DNA of 64,000 bases, from contig NZ_MWLL01000191.1 of NCBI RefSeq assembly GCF_002198675.1, positions 67,947-131,946 of the forward strand. Direction: 5' to 3'. The notes under the pieces are model-generated. The model worked only from the letters and a program-made list of their open reading frames with translations. It made no database searches and was not told where the DNA came from. The DNA comes from Kineosporia sp. R_H_3. GTDB taxonomy: Bacteria > Actinomycetota > Actinomycetes > Actinomycetales > Kineosporiaceae. Below, piece by piece: positions 42,933 through 55,917 of this stretch (positions are counted from its first letter, which is position 1; each line of letters begins with the position of its first letter). A program made the translations under genes and the position numbers.

Positions 42933-44405
42933 TCAGCAGGAGGGGCCCGCCTGGGACAGCAGGCCGATCCGCCAGGGCACCGGGGCGCCGTCGGCCACGG
43001 GCCGGTGCCCGCTGACGAGGTAGCGCAGGCCGCACGGGTCGATCGTCATCGTCTGGTCCGCCCCGGCCCGCAGCAGCTCGCCCTGGGCGACGTCCTGCGT
43101 CCACGGCGACCCGGCGAACGCGACCGTGCCCGCCGTCGCGAACGGGCTGCGGCGCGGCGTCCACGGCCCGGCCGGCGTCGGCGCCAGCCACGACCGCGTG
43201 TAGCGGTGACCCGCACCGTCGATCGCCTCGGCGAGCAGGAGGTACCCGCCGCCGCCGGCCAGCCGGTAGACGGCGGCACCGTCGAGCAGGTCGTTGCCCG
43301 TCGGTTCCTCGAGGGCCACGACGGGTTCGCCCATCCCTCGGGGGAAGTCGCCGAGCCGCGTCTGCGAGCGGTAGAGGCGTCCGTTGGTGTCCGTGGAGAA
43401 CAGGTGGCAGGTCGTGCTGTCGCACACGACCCACATGTCGACCCAGGTGCCCCGGCCGAGGCGGTCGCTGACGGTCCTCGGCGTGCTCGGGTAGAAGTTC
43501 TTCGGTGCGCTCCAGCCCAGGGGGTCGTCGATGTCGGGGTTCGTCGAGTACGAGGCGTTGCCGTCCGTCTGGTAGACGAGGTACCAGAGCTTCTGCGGCG
43601 CGAACCAGAACACGTGCGGTGCGGCGCGGTAGCCCGGGCCGAGGGGTGACAGCTCGAGGTGGTCCTGCGGCGCGGCCGCGGCCCGGGACCAGTCCGTGAA
43701 GCTCAGGTGGACCAGACCCAGCGCCGGGGGCGCGACGGCGGTGGCGAAGACGTGCCAGCGGCCGTCGTGGTAGACGACCGACGGGTCCTTGATCCCCACG
43801 GTGCGCCCGGTCACGTCGGACCGGGGCGCGATGACCGGCCCCGAGGCGGACCAGGAGGACGTCGACGGCAGGCGGGAGCCGCCGGACGACGCCTGCGCCG
43901 ACGGCGTCGACGACACGGACGTCGCGGGCGGCAGCGCAGGCACGGACCGCGTGCCGCCCCGCGTCCCGCCGGTCGGTGGCGGTGGGACGGGGACGCCGAG
44001 CGTCGGCCGCTCCTGGGGTGTCGTCCCGCCCTGGCCGGCCACCCCTGCCGGTCCGGGCGCCCCCTGGTCCCCGCCGACGAGCCGGACGGCGGTCGACCCG
44101 CCGACGATGACGGCGACGCACGCGGCGGCGGCCAACGCCGTCTGGACCCGGGCGCGCCGCCGCACGGCGAGGGTCGGGTCGGGGACGACCGCCACCCGGC
44201 GCAGGACCGTCGTCGGCGGGGACGACGGCTCCGGCCGCAGCGGCCCGCACTCCGCGGACAGCCGGACGAGCAGCGCGTCGACGTCCACCGAGTATCCGTC
44301 GGCGTGCGCGCGCAGGACGTCGCCGATGGCGCGGCCGTCGTCGCTCGCGGGGCGGTCCCGGCCGTCGTCCGCGGGGTCCGGACCGGAGAGGTCGTCAGCG
44401 AACAT
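42933..44405 (-). CDS. Membrane-anchored GH62 arabinofuranosidase with anti-sigma-like cytosolic tail
   Basis: 490 aa. Residues 1-85 are a cytosolic acidic tail with a short helical segment (AIGDVLRAHADGYSVDVDALLVRLSAECGP, 26-54); a single membrane helix is at about 88-110; a Gly/Pro/Ser/Thr linker runs 111-200; a GH62 alpha-L-arabinofuranosidase domain fills 201-490. GH62 marks: IKDPSVVYHDGRWHVFA with candidate base D207, YRAAPHVFWFAPQKLWYLVYQT, ASYSTNPDI, WVDMWVVCD (D323), LLAEAID (candidate acid E393). ATG 44405 overlaps the sigma-factor stop by 11 bp. GH62 enzymes are normally secreted with a plain signal peptide; this anchoring and pairing is unusual. Confidence 0.85.
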   Translation of the reverse strand: MFADDLSGPDPADDGRDRPASDDGRAIGDVLRAHADGYSVDVDALLVRLSAECGPLRPEPSSPPTTVLRRVAVVPDPTLAVRRRARVQTALAAAACVAVIVGGSTAVRLVGGDQGAPGPAGVAGQGGTTPQERPTLGVPVPPPPTGGTRGGTRSVPALPPATSVSSTPSAQASSGGSRLPSTSSWSASGPVIAPRSDVTGRTVGIKDPSVVYHDGRWHVFATAVAPPALGLVHLSFTDWSRAAAAPQDHLELSPLGPGYRAAPHVFWFAPQKLWYLVYQTDGNASYSTNPDIDDPLGWSAPKNFYPSTPRTVSDRLGRGTWVDMWVVCDSTTCHLFSTDTNGRLYRSQTRLGDFPRGMGEPVVALEEPTGNDLLDGAAVYRLAGGGGYLLLAEAIDGAGHRYTRSWLAPTPAGPWTPRRSPFATAGTVAFAGSPWTQDVAQGELLRAGADQTMTIDPCGLRYLVSGHRPVADGAPVPWRIGLLSQAGPSC

Positions 44406-44967
44406 GACCGTTCCGTTCCGCCCGGGAGCGCACGCGTTCCCCGGACTCCCTCGGCTGCGGAGTGCGGATCGCACCGTTCTCCAGCTCGCGGCGGAACTGC
44501 GCGGCCGCCTTCGAGGTCTGGCTCTTGACCGCGCCGACGGTCACCCCGAGCATCTCGGCGACCTCACGGTCGCTGAGGTCGAACGCGTAGCGCAGGACGA
44601 GGCACGCCCGTCGGCGGGGCGGGATCCGTTGCAGCACCGCCTGGACGTCCACGACCGCGTCGCTGTCGGGGGCGGGGCTGCTGCGCGGGACGAAGTCCCG
44701 CAGCCGCTCGAGCCCGAGCCGCTCCCGGATGACGCGCTTGTGGCGCGCCGCCGCCTGGTTGACCATGACCTGCCGCAGGTACGCGACGGGATGGTTCGCG
44801 GTGCGCACCTGGTCCCACTGCTTCCAGGCGGCGAGCATGACGTCGGCGACGAGGTCGTCCGCGGCGTGCGCGTCCGCCACGAGGAGGTAGGCGAGCCGGC
44901 CGAGGCCCCGTGCGTGGGCGGTGACGAACTCGGCGAACTCTTCGGCCGTCGACCGTGGGGGCGACAT
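44395..44967 (-). CDS. SigE-family (ECF) RNA polymerase sigma factor
   Basis: 190 aa from ATG 44967. Region 2 is about 10-80: EEFAEFVTAHARGLGRLAYLLVADAHAADDLVADVMLAAWKQWDQVRTANHPVAYLRQVMVNQAAARHKR in outline; region 4 at about 110-165 has LQRIPPRRRACLVLRYAFDLSDREVAEMLGVTVGAVKSQTSKAAAQFRREL. It overlaps the GH62 membrane-protein gene downstream. The frame continues to 45069, where another ATG exists; neither has a good ribosome site. It likely responds to the membrane partner (inference from arrangement). Confidence 0.88.
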   Translation of the reverse strand: MSPPRSTAEEFAEFVTAHARGLGRLAYLLVADAHAADDLVADVMLAAWKQWDQVRTANHPVAYLRQVMVNQAAARHKRVIRERLGLERLRDFVPRSSPAPDSDAVVDVQAVLQRIPPRRRACLVLRYAFDLSDREVAEMLGVTVGAVKSQTSKAAAQFRRELENGAIRTPQPRESGERVRSRAERNGHVR

Positions 44968-45098
44968 GGTGCCCGTGGTCAACGCTGCCTCACCGACGGC
45001 TCCGCGGTCCACGTCGTTCGGCCCGCGCCCATCCCGTGCGACGCCCACGACAGCTCCCCGCCCACCCATCGGTCACATGCATCAGTGCGTCGAGGTGG

Positions 45099-45114
45099 GG
45101 GGAAAGGTTTCCCC
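45099..45114. repeat. Inverted repeat GGGGAAAGGTTTCCCC
   Basis: Perfect 7-bp arms around a GG centre, about 130 bases upstream of the sigma-factor ATG. The GGGGAAA arms recur at 45216-45235. Confidence 0.6.
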
Positions 45115-45215: not shown

Positions 45216-45235
45216 GTTTCCGCGGTCGGGGAAAC
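45216..45235. repeat. Inverted repeat GTTTCC-N8-GGAAAC
   Basis: Second copy of a GGAAA-type dyad in the same intergenic region, with different spacing from the first. Regulator or sigma contact site are both possible. Confidence 0.5.
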
Positions 45236-45372
45236 CTGCGTCGCCGATCCGGAGCACTCATCATCGTGCACCCGCCGCCGGTGGGGCCGCGCCGGCGGCG
45301 GTGCACACCCGGACGGAGAACGTCCGGATCCCGCCCTAGCATCCTGGTCGACCCGGGAACCGAGGGAGGACC

Positions 45373-45861
45373 GTGCCCCAGCCGATGACGGTCGAGCAGG
45401 TGCTGGCCCAGCTCCGGTCGACGCCCGCGCGGCTGCGCGACCTCAGCAGGGGCGTTGCCCCGGAAGTGCTCCGGACGGCGCCGGCCCCGGACGAGTGGTC
45501 GGCGAACGACGTGCTGGCGCACCTGCGGGCGTGCGCCGACCGGTGGGGGGAGGCGGCGACCAGGATCGTCGAGGAGGACGAGCCCCGGATCCGGGGCACC
45601 GAGCCGCGGGTCTGGATCACCAGGACCGACTACCCCGACCTGCAGTTCGCCCCGTCGCTGCGGGCGTTCGTCCGTCAGCGCAGGGCCCTGCTCGCCGTCC
45701 TGGAACCCCTGTCCCCCGAGGACTGGCAGCGCACCGGGATCCTCGTCGGTGCCGGGAGGCCGGTGCCCCGGACGGTCCACACCTACGCCGAGCGGCTCGC
45801 CCGGCACGAGCGCCCGCACGTCAAGCAGGTCGAACGGACGCTCGCCCTCCTCGCCCGCTGA
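45373..45861 (+). CDS. DinB-superfamily protein
   Basis: 162 aa four-helix bundle protein. WSANDVLAHLRACADRW carries the first metal histidine, and RLARHERPHVKQVERTL the last pair, giving the three-histidine site of DinB/YfiT-like proteins. These act as thiol-dependent S-transferases or have unknown roles. GTG 45373 has GAGGGAGGACC upstream; MTVEQVL four codons later is an alternative start. Confidence 0.82.
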   Translation: MPQPMTVEQVLAQLRSTPARLRDLSRGVAPEVLRTAPAPDEWSANDVLAHLRACADRWGEAATRIVEEDEPRIRGTEPRVWITRTDYPDLQFAPSLRAFVRQRRALLAVLEPLSPEDWQRTGILVGAGRPVPRTVHTYAERLARHERPHVKQVERTLALLAR

Positions 45862-48069: not shown

Positions 48070-49074
48070 GTGGAGACCGTAGGGCGCGTCAAGATGGCCG
48101 ACGTCGCCCGCGAGGCCGGTGTCTCCGTCGCGACGGTCTCGAAGGTCGTCAACGGCCGGTACGGCGTCTCCCGGGCCACCCTGGAGAAGGTCCTCGGCGT
48201 GATCGCGGACCTCGGCTACGAGGCGAGCCTCGGCGCCCGGAGCCTTCGCAGCCTGCGGACGAACGTCATCGGCGTGCTCGTCGCCGAGTTCGAGCCGTTC
48301 AGCACGGAGCTCCTCAAGGGGGTGTCGGACGCGATCGACAGCACCGGGTACGAGCTCATCGCCTACTCGGGCCGTCACCACGGGGAGACCGTGGGCTGGG
48401 AGCGCCGGTCGCTCGTGCGGCTGGCCGGCTCCGTCATCGACGGCGCCATCGTCGTGACGCCGACGATCGTCGACGCGGAGATCGGCGGGATCCCCGTGGT
48501 CGCCGTCGATCCGCACACCGGCCCGGTCGACGTCCCGACCGTGGACGCCGACAACTACGCGGGCGGCGTCATCGCCACCGAGTACCTGCTCGGTCTCGGT
48601 CACCGTCGGATCGCGCACCTCAGCGGCCGCCCGGACCTGGAGTCCGCCAGGCTGCGGGAGCGCGGGTTCCGGGAGGCGATGGCACGCGCCGGCGTCGAGG
48701 TCGACGAGCGGCTCGTCGTGGTCGGCGGGTTCCGCGCCGAGTCGGCCGAGGGCCCGGCCCGCGAGCTGCTGTCGGGGCCGGACCGCCCCACCGCGGTGTT
48801 CGCGGCGAACGACCTGTCGGCGATCCGGACGATGGAGGTCGCCCGGTCGCTCGGTCTGCGCATCCCGGAGGACCTGTCGATCATCGGTTTCGACAACGTC
48901 CCCGAGTCGGCACTGGCGACACCGCCGCTGACGACGATCGCGCAGCCGCTCAAGGCGATCGGCGCGGCAGCGCTGCAGATGCTCGTGACGATGCTCGACG
49001 GCGCGACGCCGGCCCCGGCGCACGTCCGGCTGCCCACGACCATGGTCGAGCGGGCCTCCTGCCGGGCGCTCTGA
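48070..49074 (+). CDS. LacI-family regulator of the GH3/ABC sugar operon
   Basis: 334 aa. HTH and hinge VKMADVAREAGVSVATVSKVVNGRYGVS, then the effector domain with TNVIGVLVAEFEPFSTELLKGV, VDADNYAGGVIATEYLLGLGHRRIAHL and IPEDLSIIGFDNVPESALATPPLTTI. GTG 48070 fits the leaderless box; an ATG at 48094 is an alternative. It converges with the GH3 gene (24 bp between stops). Its own operator shares GATAACGTT with the promoter of the binding-protein gene at 54644, so it probably controls that operon. Confidence 0.92.
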   Translation: METVGRVKMADVAREAGVSVATVSKVVNGRYGVSRATLEKVLGVIADLGYEASLGARSLRSLRTNVIGVLVAEFEPFSTELLKGVSDAIDSTGYELIAYSGRHHGETVGWERRSLVRLAGSVIDGAIVVTPTIVDAEIGGIPVVAVDPHTGPVDVPTVDADNYAGGVIATEYLLGLGHRRIAHLSGRPDLESARLRERGFREAMARAGVEVDERLVVVGGFRAESAEGPARELLSGPDRPTAVFAANDLSAIRTMEVARSLGLRIPEDLSIIGFDNVPESALATPPLTTIAQPLKAIGAAALQMLVTMLDGATPAPAHVRLPTTMVERASCRAL

Positions 49075-49098
49075 GCCCCGTCCGGATCGCGACGTCCC

Positions 49099-51399
49099 CT
49101 ACTCGGTGACGGTCCACCGCCCGTCCGCCGTGGTCACCGGGTGCACCCCTCCCCCGAGCACCGTCGACGTCTGCACCGCGCGGTCCGCGGACGTCCCGAC
49201 CCACAGCTCGAGCTCGCCGGGCTCGACGACACGGCGTCCGTCGCGCGCGGTGAAGGCGAGACGGCCCGCGGGGACGCGGAACCTGACGACGGTCCCCTCC
49301 CCCGGCCCGAGGTGGACCCGCCGGTAGCCGAGCAGCTGGGCGACCGGCCGGGTGACGCTCGCGTAGACGTCGTGGCCGTAGAGCTGGACGACGTCGTCGC
49401 CGGGCACCGCCCCCGCGTTGCAGACCCGCACCGAGACGACCACACCGGCGTCCGTCGTCGGCTCACCGAGGACCGTGAGCTCCTCGTACCGGAACTGCGT
49501 GTACGACAGGCCGTGCCCGAAGGGCAGGGCGGGAGCGCTGGACAGGCTGGTCACCTCGCTGTCGGTGCCCAGCCGCGGGCGCAGGTACGAGAAGGGCTGC
49601 CCCCCGGCAGGCCGGGGCATGCTCACGGGTAGGCGGCCGGAAGGGTTGACCCGCCCCGTGAGGACGCCGGCGACGGCCGGACCGCCCTCCTCGCCGGGGA
49701 AGAACGCCTGGACGACGGCGGCGCACCGCTCGAGGGCCCAGCCGACCGCGTAGGGGCGGCCGGTCAGCATCACGAGCACGACCGGGGTGCCGGACTCCAG
49801 GACCTCCTCGACGAGGAGGCGCTGCACGCCCGGCAGCTCGAGGTCCTCCCGGTCGTTGCCCTCGCCGACCGTCCCGCGGCCGAAGAGCCCGGCCTGGTCG
49901 CCGACGACGACCACGGCCACGTCGGCGTCCTGCGCCGCGGCCCGCGCGGCCGCCAGACCCGAGGTGTCGTCGCCCTCGACGTCGCAGCCGGCGACGTGCA
50001 CGACGTCGGACCCGGCCAGCTCGGTGCGCAGCGCGTCGAGCACGGTCGCGACGACGAGGCCGGTCCGGGTCCCGGGGTGGTGCGGCAGCACGTGGTTGAC
50101 GAAGGAGTAGCAGCCGAACATCGCCTCGAGCCGGTCCGCGTTGGGGCCGAGGACGGCGACCCGACGGGGGCCGGCGAGCGGGAGCGTGCCGTCGTTGGCG
50201 AGGAGCACCACGGACTCCTCGGCGAGCCGGCGGGCGATCTCACGGTGCTCGGCGTCGTCGAGGTCCGGCGCCGCAGGGGGTTCGCCCTCGAAGGTCGCGT
50301 CGAGCAGCCCGAGCTCCTGCTTCTGCCGCAGGGCCCGGCGGACCGCCCGGTCCACGAGCGCCTCGTCGACGGCGCCGCTGCGCACCGCGGCGGCCAGCGG
50401 AGCGAGGTACGCGTCGCCCGTCGGGAGCTCGACGTCGATACCGGCCTCCAGGGCCTGGCCCGCCGCGTCGCCGAGGTCGGCCGCGACCTTGTGCAGCACG
50501 TGGAGGAAGGCGACGGCGAAGTAGTCGGCGAGCACGGTCCCGTCGAAGCCCCACTCACCGCGCAGGACGTCGGTGAGCAGCCCCTTGTCGGCGGACACCG
50601 GGACCCCGTCGATCTCGTTGTACGCCGGCATCACCGAGCGGGCGCCGCCGTCCAGCACGGCCATCTCGAACGGCACCAGGAACACGTCCCGGAGCTCCCG
50701 CGGCCCGGCGTGGACCGGCGCGAAGTTGCGTCCGGACTGGGGACCGGAGTGACCGGCGAAGTGCTTGAGGGTGGCGTGGACGCCCTCGGACTGCAGGCCG
50801 CGGACGTAGGAGGTGGTGACCGTGCCGACGAGGTAGGGGTCCTCGGAGACGCACTCCTCGACCCGTCCCCACCGCGGGTCGCGGACGACGTCGAGGACCG
50901 GCCCCAGGCCGACGTGGACGCCGAGGGCGCGCATGACGCGACCGATCGACGCACCCATCCGCTCGACGAGCTCGTGGTCGAAGGCCGCACCCCAGGCCGT
51001 GGGCGCCGGGAAGGTCGCCGCCCCCCAGGCGGCGAGCCCGGTCAGGCACTCCTCGTGGACGATCGCCGGGATGCCGAGCCGGGTCCCGGTGACGAAGCGG
51101 CGCTGCCGGTCCCACAGCCAGCGCAGCCTCTCGTCGGGGTCCACGGGGCGGGTGCCGTAGACCCGTGTGAGGTGTCCGAGACCTTCGCGGGCGACGTCGT
51201 CCAGCAGCGCCGGGGCCGCGAAGTCGTCCTGCATCGGTGCGACGGCCTCGCCCGTGCCCTTGTCCCAGAAGCCGACGATCTGCGCCAGCTTCTCCTCGAG
51301 CGTCATCCGGGCGACGAGGTCGCCGATGCGGTCGGTGGGAGCGGGAGCAGGGCCGCGGTCGGGTGCGGACGCCCCCGGGGCGTGGTGCAGCTGGGTCAC
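49099..51399 (-). CDS. GH3 beta-glucosidase/beta-xylosidase
   Basis: 766 aa, no signal peptide, hence a cytoplasmic hydrolase for imported oligosaccharides. The N-terminal TIM barrel has RMTLEEKLAQIVGFW, the KHFAGH motif (212-217) and nucleophile D292 in GTVLADYFAV, where the common SDW is ADY. The middle alpha/beta domain starts RLAEESVVLLANDGTLPL, and a C-terminal fibronectin III-like domain covers about 660-750. Substrate is beta-gluco- or xylo-oligomers by family. GTG 51399 follows GGAAGG. It is last in the binding protein / permease / permease / GH3 operon. Confidence 0.92.
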   Translation of the reverse strand: MTQLHHAPGASAPDRGPAPAPTDRIGDLVARMTLEEKLAQIVGFWDKGTGEAVAPMQDDFAAPALLDDVAREGLGHLTRVYGTRPVDPDERLRWLWDRQRRFVTGTRLGIPAIVHEECLTGLAAWGAATFPAPTAWGAAFDHELVERMGASIGRVMRALGVHVGLGPVLDVVRDPRWGRVEECVSEDPYLVGTVTTSYVRGLQSEGVHATLKHFAGHSGPQSGRNFAPVHAGPRELRDVFLVPFEMAVLDGGARSVMPAYNEIDGVPVSADKGLLTDVLRGEWGFDGTVLADYFAVAFLHVLHKVAADLGDAAGQALEAGIDVELPTGDAYLAPLAAAVRSGAVDEALVDRAVRRALRQKQELGLLDATFEGEPPAAPDLDDAEHREIARRLAEESVVLLANDGTLPLAGPRRVAVLGPNADRLEAMFGCYSFVNHVLPHHPGTRTGLVVATVLDALRTELAGSDVVHVAGCDVEGDDTSGLAAARAAAQDADVAVVVVGDQAGLFGRGTVGEGNDREDLELPGVQRLLVEEVLESGTPVVLVMLTGRPYAVGWALERCAAVVQAFFPGEEGGPAVAGVLTGRVNPSGRLPVSMPRPAGGQPFSYLRPRLGTDSEVTSLSSAPALPFGHGLSYTQFRYEELTVLGEPTTDAGVVVSVRVCNAGAVPGDDVVQLYGHDVYASVTRPVAQLLGYRRVHLGPGEGTVVRFRVPAGRLAFTARDGRRVVEPGELELWVGTSADRAVQTSTVLGGGVHPVTTADGRWTVTE

Positions 51400-51424
51400 G
51401 GTGCAACCTTCCGACGGTTCGGGC

Positions 51425-52315
51425 TCAGCCCTTGACGGCGCCCTGCAGCCCGCTGACGATGCGGCGCTGCATGGCGAGGAAGAAGACGAGTGCGGGGACC
51501 ATGGCGAGCGTCGTGAACGCGAACACTCCCGCCGTGTCGGAGGAGTACTGCGACGAGAAGTCCGCGACCCCGAGCGGCAGGGTCTTGCGGTCCTCCTGCA
51601 GCAGCAGCAGCGGCAGGAGGTACGCGTTCCACGACGCGACGAACGCGAGCACCCCGACGGTGACGACACCGGGCCCCGACAGCGGCACCACGATCCGCCA
51701 GAAGAACTGGATCCGGCTGGCCCCGTCGAGGACGGCCGCCTCCTCGAGCTCGGTCGGGATGGCCATGAGCACCGGCCGCAGGATGATGATCGTCGTCGGC
51801 AGCGCGAACGCGGCCTGCGGCAGCGCCACCCCCCACCAGGTGTTCCCGAGCTGGAGCTGGCGGGTGATGATGACGAACAGCGGGATGATCGCGACCGTCG
51901 CCGGGAACAGCAGACCGAGGACGAAGACCGTGTAGAGCGGCTCGCGCCAACGGAACTGGTACCGCGCCAACGGATATGCGGCCATCAGGCCGAACGTCAC
52001 GGCGACGACCGTGGTGACGACCGCGATCACGGTCGAGTTCAGTGCGTACGACCAGAACGACGAGTCGGTCAGCACCCGGATGTAGTTGTCCAGGACCCAG
52101 GGGTTCGGCAGGCCCGCCGGTGACTCGGCGAGCTGGGCGTTCGTCCGGAACCCGCCGAGGACGGCGTAGAGCACGGGGCCGAGGGTGAACCCCACGACGA
52201 CGAGCGCGACGAGGTACACCAGCGGGGAGGCACCGCGGGACGGCCCGGAGGCCTTGCGGGGCCGGGGCGCGCCGATGCCGGCATCCCCGCCCCGGACGGC
52301 GGTCGCGCTGGTCAT
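51425..52315 (-). CDS. Sugar ABC transporter permease (MalG type)
   Basis: 296 aa, about six membrane helices; coupling loop ELEEAAVLDGASRIQFFWRIVVP; C-terminus GLQGAVKG. ATG 52315 overlaps the MalF-like gene stop. Part of the operon for the importer linked to GH3. Confidence 0.93.
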   Translation of the reverse strand: MTSATAVRGGDAGIGAPRPRKASGPSRGASPLVYLVALVVVGFTLGPVLYAVLGGFRTNAQLAESPAGLPNPWVLDNYIRVLTDSSFWSYALNSTVIAVVTTVVAVTFGLMAAYPLARYQFRWREPLYTVFVLGLLFPATVAIIPLFVIITRQLQLGNTWWGVALPQAAFALPTTIIILRPVLMAIPTELEEAAVLDGASRIQFFWRIVVPLSGPGVVTVGVLAFVASWNAYLLPLLLLQEDRKTLPLGVADFSSQYSSDTAGVFAFTTLAMVPALVFFLAMQRRIVSGLQGAVKG

Positions 52316-53343
52316 CGGACTCCCCTCCGGGCGCTCGCGTCGGCCTCGGCCACGTCACGCCGCAGGACGAGGAACTGGTAGAGCAGGGCGAAGACGAGCG
52401 CGACGGCGAAGAGGATCACCGAGGCGGCGGTCGCGATGCCGTAGTTGTAGCGCTTGGTGCCCTCGTTGATGAGGTAGGTCGCCATCGTCGTGGTGGCGTT
52501 GGCCGGCCCTCCGCCGGTGAGGATCCACACCATGTCGAAGAGCTGGATGGAACCGATCATCGACAGGAACGCCCAGGTGCGGACGGTCGGGCCGAGCAGC
52601 GGGACGGTGATCCGCCGCTGCACCTGCCACCACGACGCGCCGTCCATCTGCGCGGCCTCGATCAGCTCGTCGGGGACTCCCTGCAGGCCGGCGAGGAACA
52701 GCAGCACCGCGAGCCCGAGGTACTTCCACGTGAGCACCCCGAAGACTGTGAACAGCGCGATGTCGGGCGTCCCGAGCCAGCCCTGCTCCGGGCCGGGGAT
52801 GCCGACGACGCCGAGGATCCCCTCGATGACTCCGTACTGCGGCTGGAGCAGCTGGAACCAGACCACGCCCGCGATGACCTCGGAGAGGACGTAGGGGACG
52901 AAGATGACGGTGCGCAGCACACCCTGGCCGCGGATCTTCCGGTTGAGCAGCAACGCGATGGCGAGCCCCAGCGGCAGCTGGACGAGGATCGACAGCACGA
53001 TGATGACCATGTTGTGGGTGAAGGCCGCGACGAACACGTCGTCCTGGAGCACCGTCACGTAGTTCCGCAGGCCGACGAAGTCCTCCAGCGGACCGAAGCC
53101 CTTCCAGCGGTAGAACGAGAACTGCACGGCCCGGGCCACCGGCCACACGACGAAGACGACGAACAGGGCCAGGGCCGGCCCCACGAAGAACAGCACCTCC
53201 AGCGCCGTCCGCAGGCCGGACCCGCTGCGGGCGGACGCGTTGCGGCGGGCCGCCGACCGCGCGGGAGCGCGGTCGGCGGCACCGTTGCTCACGCCGGTCC
53301 CCGTGTGCGGGGCGGCGTCGGAGCGGCGGACGACGGACGTCAC
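52312..53343 (-). CDS. Sugar ABC transporter permease (MalF type)
   Basis: 343 aa. A 45-residue basic/alanine tail precedes the first helix; YRWKGFGPLEDFVGLRNYVTVLQD and the coupling loop ELIEAAQMDGASWWQVQRRITVP are MalF hallmarks, and TGGGPANATTTMATYL closes the last part. GTG 53343 overlaps the binding-protein stop (GTGA). No ATPase gene lies in the operon, so a shared ATPase is presumed. Confidence 0.93.
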   Translation of the reverse strand: MTSVVRRSDAAPHTGTGVSNGAADRAPARSAARRNASARSGSGLRTALEVLFFVGPALALFVVFVVWPVARAVQFSFYRWKGFGPLEDFVGLRNYVTVLQDDVFVAAFTHNMVIIVLSILVQLPLGLAIALLLNRKIRGQGVLRTVIFVPYVLSEVIAGVVWFQLLQPQYGVIEGILGVVGIPGPEQGWLGTPDIALFTVFGVLTWKYLGLAVLLFLAGLQGVPDELIEAAQMDGASWWQVQRRITVPLLGPTVRTWAFLSMIGSIQLFDMVWILTGGGPANATTTMATYLINEGTKRYNYGIATAASVILFAVALVFALLYQFLVLRRDVAEADASARRGVR

Positions 53344-54644
53344 TTCTCGGCGTCCGCCGCGGTCTGGGTCTTCGCGACGATGTCCTGCGGGGTGGCCTTG
53401 CCCGCGAACAGCAGGGCGATCTGGTCGTTCATCACGCCACCGACCGCCTGACCGAACGCGGTGTCGAAGTACAGCTGGACGAAGGGCGAGTCGTCACGGA
53501 CCTTGAGCAGGCCGGCCAGCGCCGGGTCCTTCACCGACCCCGAGGCCGACGGGTTCGTCGGCAGACCCATGTCACGCTCCGCGAAGCCCTTCTGGACCTC
53601 GTCGGACAGCAGGTACTTGACGAAGTCGACCGCAGCGTCCGGGGCGTTCTTGGACACGGCCCACGCGTCGCCGCCGCCGAGAGCCGCCGCCGGGTCACCC
53701 TGACCGCCTGCGACCGACGGGAACGGGAACCAGCCGAGCTTGTCGCCCAGGCCCTTCTTGTCGGCCGTCAGGCCCTGCATGACGCCCGGCTCCCAGTGGC
53801 CCTGCATCTCCATCGCCACCTTGCCCGTGGCCAGCAGGCCGGAGGCGCTCGTCGGGCCGGTCTGGGCCGGGGTCGACAGGAAGCCGCGGTTGAAGGGCTT
53901 CGCCTTGACGACCTTCTCGAGCTCCTGGCCCGCCGTGACGAAGCACGGGTTCGAGAAGTCCAGGCTCTTCACGGCGTCCTGGAGCACCTGCTGCGGGCAC
54001 GCCCGCAGCGCCAGGTAGTACCAGTAGTGGGCGGCGGGCCACTTGTCACCCGCGCCGACCGAGATGGGGTCGACACCTGCTGCCCGGAGCTTGTCCGAGG
54101 CCGCGAGCAGGTCGTCCATCGTCGCCGGGGGCGTGGTGATCCCGGCCTTCTCGAAGAGGTCCTTGTTGTACCAGAAGCCCACCACCCCGACGGAGAACGG
54201 CAGGGCGTACGTCTTGCCGTCCACCTGCCAGCCGGCCACGGAGCCACCGAGGGTCGAGATGACGTCGGCGGCGGGGGCCGAGATGTCCTTGACCAGGTTC
54301 GCCTCGACGTGGTCGGCGAGCTCGCCGCCGCCCCGCTCCATGTAGACGTCCGGGACGTCGCCGCTCTGGAAGGCCGCGTCGAGCTTGGTGAGCATGTCCT
54401 CGTGCTGGAGGGCGCTGACCTCGACGGTCACGCCCGGGTTCGCCGCCTCGAACTTCTTCGCGACCTCGGCGTAGTAGCCCTTGCCGGGGTCGGTGTTGGA
54501 GTTGTGCCACCACGTGATGGTGGTCGCCGCACCGCTCGACGCGGGTGCGTCGGCAGGAGATTCTTCGCCGCCGGTGCCGCATGCGGCGAGTACCGCCACC
54601 GCAGCTCCGAACGCCAGGGCCCGCGTGACCGAAGTCCGCCTCAT
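53340..54644 (-). CDS. Sugar-binding lipoprotein (SBP family 1)
   Basis: 434 aa. Sec signal with lipobox LAAC (cysteine near 21), then TTITWWHNSNTDPGKGYYAEVAKKFEAANPGVTVEV, the family-1 opening. PFSVGVVGFWYNKDLFEKAGI and GHWEPGVMQG are typical ligand-cleft segments. ATG 54644 has GAGGAG eight bases upstream. First gene of the GH3-linked importer operon; its promoter region carries overlapping LacI palindromes at 54713-54732. Ligand probably a beta-linked oligosaccharide (inferred from the GH3 enzyme). Confidence 0.92.
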   Translation of the reverse strand: MRRTSVTRALAFGAAVAVLAACGTGGEESPADAPASSGAATTITWWHNSNTDPGKGYYAEVAKKFEAANPGVTVEVSALQHEDMLTKLDAAFQSGDVPDVYMERGGGELADHVEANLVKDISAPAADVISTLGGSVAGWQVDGKTYALPFSVGVVGFWYNKDLFEKAGITTPPATMDDLLAASDKLRAAGVDPISVGAGDKWPAAHYWYYLALRACPQQVLQDAVKSLDFSNPCFVTAGQELEKVVKAKPFNRGFLSTPAQTGPTSASGLLATGKVAMEMQGHWEPGVMQGLTADKKGLGDKLGWFPFPSVAGGQGDPAAALGGGDAWAVSKNAPDAAVDFVKYLLSDEVQKGFAERDMGLPTNPSASGSVKDPALAGLLKVRDDSPFVQLYFDTAFGQAVGGVMNDQIALLFAGKATPQDIVAKTQTAADAEK

Positions 54645-54712
54645 CGTGACGCTCCTCGTCCTTGAGTGAGTTGACGCCGCCACCGTGACACTGCGGCGAT
54701 CGTCTCGTCAAT

Positions 54713-54732
54713 CGTTATCGATAACGTTATCG
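54713..54732. promoter_or_regulatory. Two overlapping GATAACGTT palindromes (LacI-type operators)
   Basis: CGTTATCGATAACG (54713-54726) and CGATAACGTTATCG (54719-54732) are both perfect 14-bp palindromes sharing eight bases. They lie 69-88 bases upstream of the binding-protein start and just before the ROK gene. The half-site GATAACGTT also occurs in the operator of the LacI gene at 48029-48046, linking the two. Confidence 0.75.
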
Positions 54733-54783
54733 TAAAGGCGCGAGCCAGCACCGCGACCGTCGGGGAGGTGCCGTCGCCCGGGG

Positions 54784-55917
54784 GTGGGCCTGTCCCGCTC
54801 GAAGGTGGCCCTGGAGCTGGACCGGCTCACCGACCTCGGTCTGGTCGAGACGCCAGGGCTGGCGAGGTCGCGCGGCGGGCGCCGGTCCCATCTGGTGTCC
54901 CTGAGCGCCGGGCTGCGGTTCGTGGGCATCGACATCGGGGCGACGTCGGTCGACGTCGCGATCACCGACGGCGAGCTGCGGATCCTGGCCCACGCGGCGG
55001 ACGAGATCGACATCCGGCAGGGGCCCGTCGCCGTCCTGCAGCACGCGGTCAGCCTCGTCGAGAAGCTACGGGCCGACGGGGCCGCCCCGCAGCTGCACGG
55101 CATCGGCGTCGGCGTGCCCGGCCCTGTGAGCCAGCGCGAGGGCGCTCCGGTGTTCCCGCCGATCATGCCGGGCTGGAACCACTTCCCCGTCCGCGACACG
55201 TTGTCGGCGCGGCTCGGCGCACCGGTGCTCGTCGACAACGACGTCAACATCATGGCGCTCGGCGAGCTCCACGCCGGCACGGCCCGAAGCGTCCGGGACT
55301 TCCTGTTCGTCAAGGTCGGCACGGGGATCGGCTGCGGCATCGTCGTCCACGGGGAGGTCTACCGGGGCGTCGGCGGCTGCGCCGGGGACATCGGCCACAT
55401 CGCCGTCGACGAGTCGGGCCCGACGTGCAGCTGCGGCAACACCGGCTGCCTCGAGGCCTACTTCGGAGGCGCCGCGCTCGCGCGCGACGCCGAGGCGACC
55501 GCCCGGTCCGGGCGCTCCGACATGCTCGCCGAACGCCTGCGTGCCACCGGCCGGCTGACGGCGCGGGACGTCGGGGAGGCCGCAGCGGCCGGCGACCCGG
55601 CCGCGGTCGCCCTGATCCGGGACGGCGGCGCCCGGCTGGGTGCGGCCCTCGCCACGCTGGTCAGCTTCTTCAACCCGGCCATGGTCGTCATCGGCGGGGG
55701 CGTCGCCGGGCTCGGGCACCGGCTCCTCGCCGAGATCCGCAGCGTCGTCTACCGCAGGTCCCTGCCGCTGGCCACCGGGAACCTGCCCATCGTGCTCTCC
55801 GAGCTGGGCGGCACGGCGGGCGTCGTCGGCGCGGCGCGGTTCGTCTCCGACTCTGCGTTCAGCACCCTGGCGGAGGCGGACCCGCGACCGCGCCGCACCC
55901 CCGGAGCCGTCCCGTGA
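54784..55917 (+). CDS. ROK-family regulator/kinase-like protein with incomplete HTH
   Basis: 377 aa. The N-terminus begins inside the winged helix (GLSRSKVALELDRLTDLGLVE), so the first helices found in NagC/Mlc-type ROK regulators are missing. The ROK fold follows: VGIDIGATSVDVAI (phosphate-1), IGVGVPGPV, LVDNDVNIMALGE, and zinc site with CSCGNTGCLEAY. Just upstream, another frame reads TVGEVPSPG, which would continue the HTH after a one-base shift within the G-run at 54780-54784. The gene is therefore either frameshifted or 5'-truncated. The stop overlaps the ATPase start, and it heads the ribose-type transporter operon. Confidence 0.8.
   Translation: MGLSRSKVALELDRLTDLGLVETPGLARSRGGRRSHLVSLSAGLRFVGIDIGATSVDVAITDGELRILAHAADEIDIRQGPVAVLQHAVSLVEKLRADGAAPQLHGIGVGVPGPVSQREGAPVFPPIMPGWNHFPVRDTLSARLGAPVLVDNDVNIMALGELHAGTARSVRDFLFVKVGTGIGCGIVVHGEVYRGVGGCAGDIGHIAVDESGPTCSCGNTGCLEAYFGGAALARDAEATARSGRSDMLAERLRATGRLTARDVGEAAAAGDPAAVALIRDGGARLGAALATLVSFFNPAMVVIGGGVAGLGHRLLAEIRSVVYRRSLPLATGNLPIVLSELGGTAGVVGAARFVSDSAFSTLAEADPRPRRTPGAVP

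Follow-up and report, generated by a model that had tools for sequence, protein, structure and literature searches.

In Clostridium thermocellum, the sigma factor SigI6 is paired with the membrane protein RsgI6, whose GH10 head is reported to have very low activity yet bind xylan; sigma-I6 is described as acting on its own promoter and on the promoters of GH10 and CE1-containing xylanase genes (PMC4711584). RsgI proteins combine an autocleaving periplasmic domain (PMC12203970) with an outer polysaccharide-sensing module, which is sometimes a glycosidase. Actinobacteria possess the ECF52 and ECF53 sigma systems, for which outer carbohydrate-binding or glycosyl-hydrolase domains are predicted in addition to a membrane part; there, sigma factor and membrane part are fused in one protein, and the membrane part has a zinc finger (PMC10766802, PMC8999054). 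The membrane anti-sigma factors of ECF sigma factors include class I and the CnrY type, CnrY being a known inhibitor with two helices (PMC7406223). Here we analyze a sigma factor gene and its overlapping neighbor in a 64,000-nucleotide stretch of a Kineosporia genome (the window; its genome is designated G000), which probably constitute a sigma/anti-sigma signaling unit that senses arabinoxylan through a decayed GH62 head and controls a small xylan regulon.

The sigma factor gene (44395–44967, reverse strand) encodes a protein of 190 residues in which regions 2 and 4 are both present. Pfam and NCBIfam searches place it in the SigE family, with a score of 149.1 bits against TIGR02983 (SigE-fam_strep; curated cut-off 141.55), and the SigI model was absent from the best 25 of its 88 NCBIfam matches. 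The end of this gene, at its stop, has 11 bp (44395–44405) in common with the start of a second gene in a different frame (42933–44405, reverse strand), which encodes a single-pass membrane protein of 490 residues with a GH62 head, the proposed anti-sigma factor and sensor. Such an 11-bp overlap between a SigE-family sigma gene and a 490-residue GH62 gene had been called from the sequence alone, and the open reading frames and family searches bear it out. Approximately 3 kb from the sigma gene, the window also contains a stretch (48070–55914) encoding a LacI regulator, a GH3 enzyme (49102–51669, reverse strand), a sugar ABC transporter (51428–54683, reverse strand) and a ROK protein; the promoter-like site described below was not found in this stretch.

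The membrane protein begins with a cytosolic tail of 88 residues (44142–44405, reverse strand), the proposed sigma-binding part. The tail had been described as acidic and as spanning residues 1–85; it exists, but is only mildly acidic overall, with 15 Asp and Glu against 12 Lys and Arg, and contains one Cys. A single hydrophobic segment follows the motif RRRAR and forms the membrane helix at about residues 89–107 (44085–44141, reverse strand; hydropathy 1.96), which leads into a linker rich in Pro, Ser, Thr and Gly by sequence (residues 108–178; 43872–44084, reverse strand), in agreement with the architecture of one helix and a linker given in the sequence-only reading. The structure model is confident for the head, while the tail, helix and linker mostly have pLDDT values below 50; the model sets the membrane helix at residues 78–101, but with pLDDT below 50 there, and linker residues 118–175, likewise below 50, are predicted to be disordered. 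Two short helices (residues 22–36 and 42–53) are predicted in the tail with low confidence.

The tail matched no anti-sigma family in Pfam or NCBIfam, and neither the Hx3Cx2C motif nor a recognizable class I anti-sigma domain was found in it. A Pfam scan of the whole membrane protein at E values up to 1 returned GH62 alone, without RsgI_N, and gave no match between the helix and the GH62 head, where RsgI has its periplasmic autocleaving domain. When scored against a profile built from the tails of twelve related proteins, the window protein reached 7.4, a weak likeness equaled by 2 of 300 shuffles; the corresponding proteins of two congeners (see below) scored 9.8 and 6.5, with no shuffle as high. 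We infer that the membrane protein acts as an anti-sigma factor through this tail.

Turning to the outer head, residues 179–490 (42936–43871, reverse strand) form a GH62 domain nearest to 5b6s and 4n2z. The match to PF03664 (150 bits against a cut-off of 22.1; residues 178–458) and the five-bladed fold assign it to the GH62 sequence family, as had been read from the sequence. The best solved match of the predicted head is 5b6s, a fungal GH62 structure, with a TM-score of 0.93 by target length and 55% identity; the sequence match of the membrane protein to 5b6s has an E value of 3.9e-116. GH62 catalysis is described as depending on two aspartates and one glutamate (PMC6556953). Both aspartates named in the sequence-only reading, D207 and D323, are present. 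For the Streptomyces coelicolor GH62 enzyme, we take the catalytic residues to be D202, D309 and E361, with spacings of 107 and 159; these spacings agree with the 3wmy chain when E361 is taken as the Glu of LFEGVQVY; the alternative Glu would give 177. This places the catalytic Glu column at residue 375 of the window protein, where the codon (43281–43283, reverse strand) specifies Asp, so that in the set of Asp, Asp and Glu characteristic of active GH62 arabinofuranosidases the Glu is replaced by D375. The earlier assignment of E393 as the kept catalytic Glu was accordingly rejected: E393 is a different Glu, conserved in enzymes and replaced by Gln in both congeners, and correcting this call strengthens the sensor idea.

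The catalytic Glu column holds Asp in all three sigma-linked proteins, and Glu in each of the 34 unlinked GH62 domains that were checked; a domain counts as unlinked if its locus, taken with 1.5 to 4 kb of flanking DNA as far as the contig allowed, gave no sigma match at E 1e-5. These 34 comprise 33 domains correctly aligned together and one (L059) that was misaligned in the joint alignment, because only its last 420 residues entered it, and that has the Glu in a separate alignment. The His of the ISHGE motif is likewise Gln in the three linked proteins, whereas it is His in 32 of 33 unlinked domains and Ser in the remaining one (L058). Because the catalytic Glu is Asp in the sigma-linked proteins, the GH62 head is probably a binding sensor rather than an enzyme; the earlier suggestion that it perhaps also cleaves its ligand is thus not favored, with the caveat that Glu-to-Asp replacement is conservative and some activity may remain.

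Among 13 genomes of the family, including that of the window, the membrane form occurs in two others, both of the same genus: Kineosporia sp. A_224 (G011; L057) and a groundwater metagenome assembly (G012; L052). Their membrane proteins are 49–51% identical to the window protein, and the adjoining sigma factors are 55–56% identical to the window sigma. As the pair recurs in two further genomes of the genus, the linkage of sigma and GH62 is more than chance. Both share the gene order NUDIX-like, sigma, GH62 and then a secreted CBM13–GH10 xylanase (GH10 and ricin-type domains were confirmed by search for G012 and G000, and the NUDIX-like genes were named by eye). On contig C265 of the window's genome, a NUDIX-like gene is followed directly by GH10 with no pair between them; therefore, the pair occupies two different loci, while GH10 stays put. 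The GH10 genes are cut by contig ends in all three genomes (L018, L019 and L080), perhaps as a result of near-identical GH10 stretches elsewhere, such as a GH10–GH62 gene.

The sigma-linked proteins constitute a single clade among actinobacterial GH62 domains (support 100/98), and since all three fall in this one clade, loss of the Glu and linkage to sigma count as one event. A wider search for linked GH62 genes, using two peptide patterns over genome contigs, gave 21 loci, two of which, both the congeners, were sigma-linked; 16 loci were examined for sigma in a first pass and 19 in a later one, with L069 and L070 (partial or weak) dropped. Across the order, GH62 matches at E 1e-40 or better came from 14 of 297 genomes, with no more than five candidates scored in any one genome, and the membrane form with tail was present in the three congeners only; two weak pieces (L016, L017) were dropped. 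The search for further sigma-adjacent genes combining a transmembrane helix with GH62, as had been suggested, therefore recovered the pair in two congeneric genomes. GH62 genes that encode an ordinary signal peptide and are unlinked to sigma factors, which had been named as evidence that would tell against the sensor, do exist, but solely outside this clade, on other branches in which the Glu is kept.

A promoter-like site, GAAACC-N17-GCACT, lies about 117 bp before the sigma start (45084–45111, reverse strand). A second, divergent copy (45231–45258, forward strand) stands ahead of a DinB_2 superfamily gene (45373–45861, forward strand), a possible further target. Both congeners have GCAACC-N17-ACACT before sigma and GCAACC-N17-GCACT before GH10. 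Since the motif was read off these upstream regions together, the five sites (sigma and GH10 of G011 and G012, and sigma of the window) are training data; those outside the derivation precede the GH10 gene of G000 and the esterase genes of G000 and G012. Across the three genomes, the pattern GMAACC-N17-RCACT is matched exactly at 12 sites: three at sigma genes, three at GH10, one at an esterase, the divergent site of the window and four others in gene-like frames, while its reversed control has 2 sites in G000, 10 in G011 and none in G012. The variant MAACCT-N16-RCACT, which picked up the esterase gene of G012, also has 12 sites (two sigma, three GH10, two esterase, one divergent and four others in open frames, which are less clear for C127 and C226), with 1, 1 and 0 control sites in G000, G011 and G012, respectively. 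The window holds two sites against 0.02 expected, and none of 100 shuffles held two. Extension of the regulon by allowing one mismatch was rejected, with 19 sites against 12 in the control. Of the five exact sites considered there, one more, on C252, falls within a coding frame. From the observed sites, we infer that G(A/C)AACC-N17-(A/G)CACT is the promoter used by the sigma factor.

The esterase site lies inside an open frame on the opposite strand, yet that frame has no start codon before the site. It falls a few bases before an ATG; a GTG further downstream, accompanied by a ribosome-site-like GGGGAG and a signal sequence, would be the better-fitting start. The esterase matches a feruloyl esterase (1.2e-64) and acetylxylan esterase A (9e-62), and a PHB depolymerase family entry at only 4.8e-11, and the G012 protein bears ricin-type CBM13 modules. 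It thus appears nearest to the feruloyl/acetylxylan type, although NCBIfam names the family PHA depolymerase. G011 gave no esterase match at E 1e-30. The secreted GH10–GH62 gene of the window's genome was rejected as a regulon member, as a relaxed form of the pattern gave no match in the 612 bp upstream. The region upstream of this gene (L012) carries an AT-rich CGATAACGTTATCG palindrome, which suggests that this ordinary enzyme may be under LacI-type control, apart from the sigma pair. The presence of the sigma factor's DNA signature before xylan-degrading enzyme genes as well suggests that the cell senses arabinoxylan before making xylan-degrading enzymes.

In the mechanism that we propose, the cytosolic tail would keep the sigma factor inactive, and the outer GH62 head, which has lost its catalytic glutamate and is predicted to keep the fold, would bind arabinosyl-substituted xylan. 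Ligand binding would release the sigma factor, possibly by proteolysis, and the freed sigma would transcribe its own operon, the CBM13–GH10 xylanase gene and, where present, the feruloyl/acetylxylan-type esterase gene, from putative promoters at the (A/C)AACC-N17-(A/G)CACT sites. Synteny and promoter sites thereby support the view that this is an actinobacterial counterpart of RsgI coupling arabinoxylan recognition to hemicellulase genes, although it is not RsgI itself.

Alternatively, the GH62 protein could be a target of the sigma factor, either a tethered enzyme or a xylan-binding surface protein, with the sigma regulated in some other way. Its gene does lie in an operon behind the sigma promoter, and its tail holds no recognized anti-sigma domain; we nevertheless consider this unlikely in view of the gene overlap, the long N-terminal tail, RRRAR ahead of the helix, the lost catalytic Glu and the like layout behind 25 other sigma genes of this genome (from 30 loci). 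A head that is still an active arabinofuranosidase and senses by cleavage, with Asp375 serving as the acid, seems rather less probable again: the invariant Glu of the 34 unlinked domains and the Gln residues at the ISHGE His (in the three linked proteins) and at E393 (in the congeners) argue against it, even though the fold and the two catalytic aspartates are kept and Asp is also a carboxylate. Least plausible by far is that a sigma factor of other function merely neighbors a GH62 gene and that the promoter-like sites arose by chance. Control patterns do match these GC-rich genomes too, as the 10 sites in G011 attest, but the pair persists in three genomes, where it occupies two distinct loci, and exact sites precede GH10 in three genomes and the esterase in two.

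The window's genome contains 43 matches to the sigma protein, and 30 loci were examined, one being the window's own. With L025, L035, L044 and L045 dropped for want of a clear membrane ORF, the next ORF at the 25 other loci has a hydrophobic segment after a tail of 42–91 residues. Of these neighboring proteins, 20 of the 25 were scanned with Pfam (L036, L039, L041, L043 and L047 left out), which gave a family over the cut-off in three, GH12 (L022), DUF1996 (L033) and a WD40 propeller (L049), with none for the other 17. At L022, the GH12 profile matches only the first 49 of its 207 positions, and no GH12 structure was found among the matches of residues 217–382; another protein (L030) is perhaps GH16-like, on weak matches. 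The L022 site, GCAACC-N17-GACAGA, has one match in each of the three genomes: its own promoter in G000, a position upstream of an uncharacterized secreted protein in G012 and gene-like frames in G011; these yield no regulon. When the 260 bp before 39 such sigma genes of several genomes were compared (one short stretch left out), 12 contained GCAACC, whereas shuffling predicts 2.85 and the opposite strand has 4. In other Kineosporiaceae genomes, an outer domain with the pattern DW..IG.RND..RK...LSWTGG.PEQ recurs behind the closest relatives of the sigma factor (L021, L114 and L116–L123), and no Pfam family exceeded the cut-off in the five such proteins scanned.

Possibly, the pair belongs to a family of modular sensors in actinobacteria whose origin is separate from that of RsgI, an idea we advance tentatively. 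Members of such a family would have exchanged their outer parts, drawing on former hydrolases and on other folds (GH62, GH12, DUF1996, WD40 propeller and perhaps GH16), the related sigma factors would have GCAACC in common as their −35 element but diverge at −10, and each decayed head would report its former substrate to a private regulon. The pair also hints at the signals to which some of the many orphan SigE-type pairs of these genomes could respond. If the model is true, a former enzyme has become an antenna a second, separate time, outside clostridia and on another sigma class, and this antenna would serve genes encoding the former co-workers of that enzyme. The model gives predictions for promoter, ligand and regulon that are directly testable in an actinobacterium.

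No description of a GH62 sensor or GH62 anti-sigma factor was found in the open-licence literature, which does not prove absence. The window protein resembles GH62 arabinofuranosidases in sequence, fold and the two catalytic aspartates, and differs from them in its Asp for the catalytic Glu, its membrane anchor and its linkage to a sigma factor. Like ECF membrane anti-sigma factors of class I and of the CnrY type, it is encoded beside a sigma factor and passes the membrane once; unlike them, it matches no known anti-sigma family, and its outer part is a former hydrolase. We regard the fused ECF52/ECF53 proteins as the nearest actinobacterial analogy, from which the present system differs in consisting of two genes and in having no Hx3Cx2C motif in the tail. 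With SigI6–RsgI6, it shares a sigma gene that overlaps or adjoins the gene for a protein that crosses the membrane once and has a head of a glycosidase family (PMC4711584), and the GH62 domain may stand in the place of the outer sensing module of RsgI. The differences are a SigE-family sigma, the lack of RsgI_N and of a recognized autocleaving domain, GH62 instead of GH10, a short tail and an actinobacterial host. The pair is not a member of the RsgI family, because neither RsgI_N nor, among the best 25 NCBIfam matches, SigI was recognized; by analogy, the best reading is that it would function like SigI6–RsgI6, but from outside that family.
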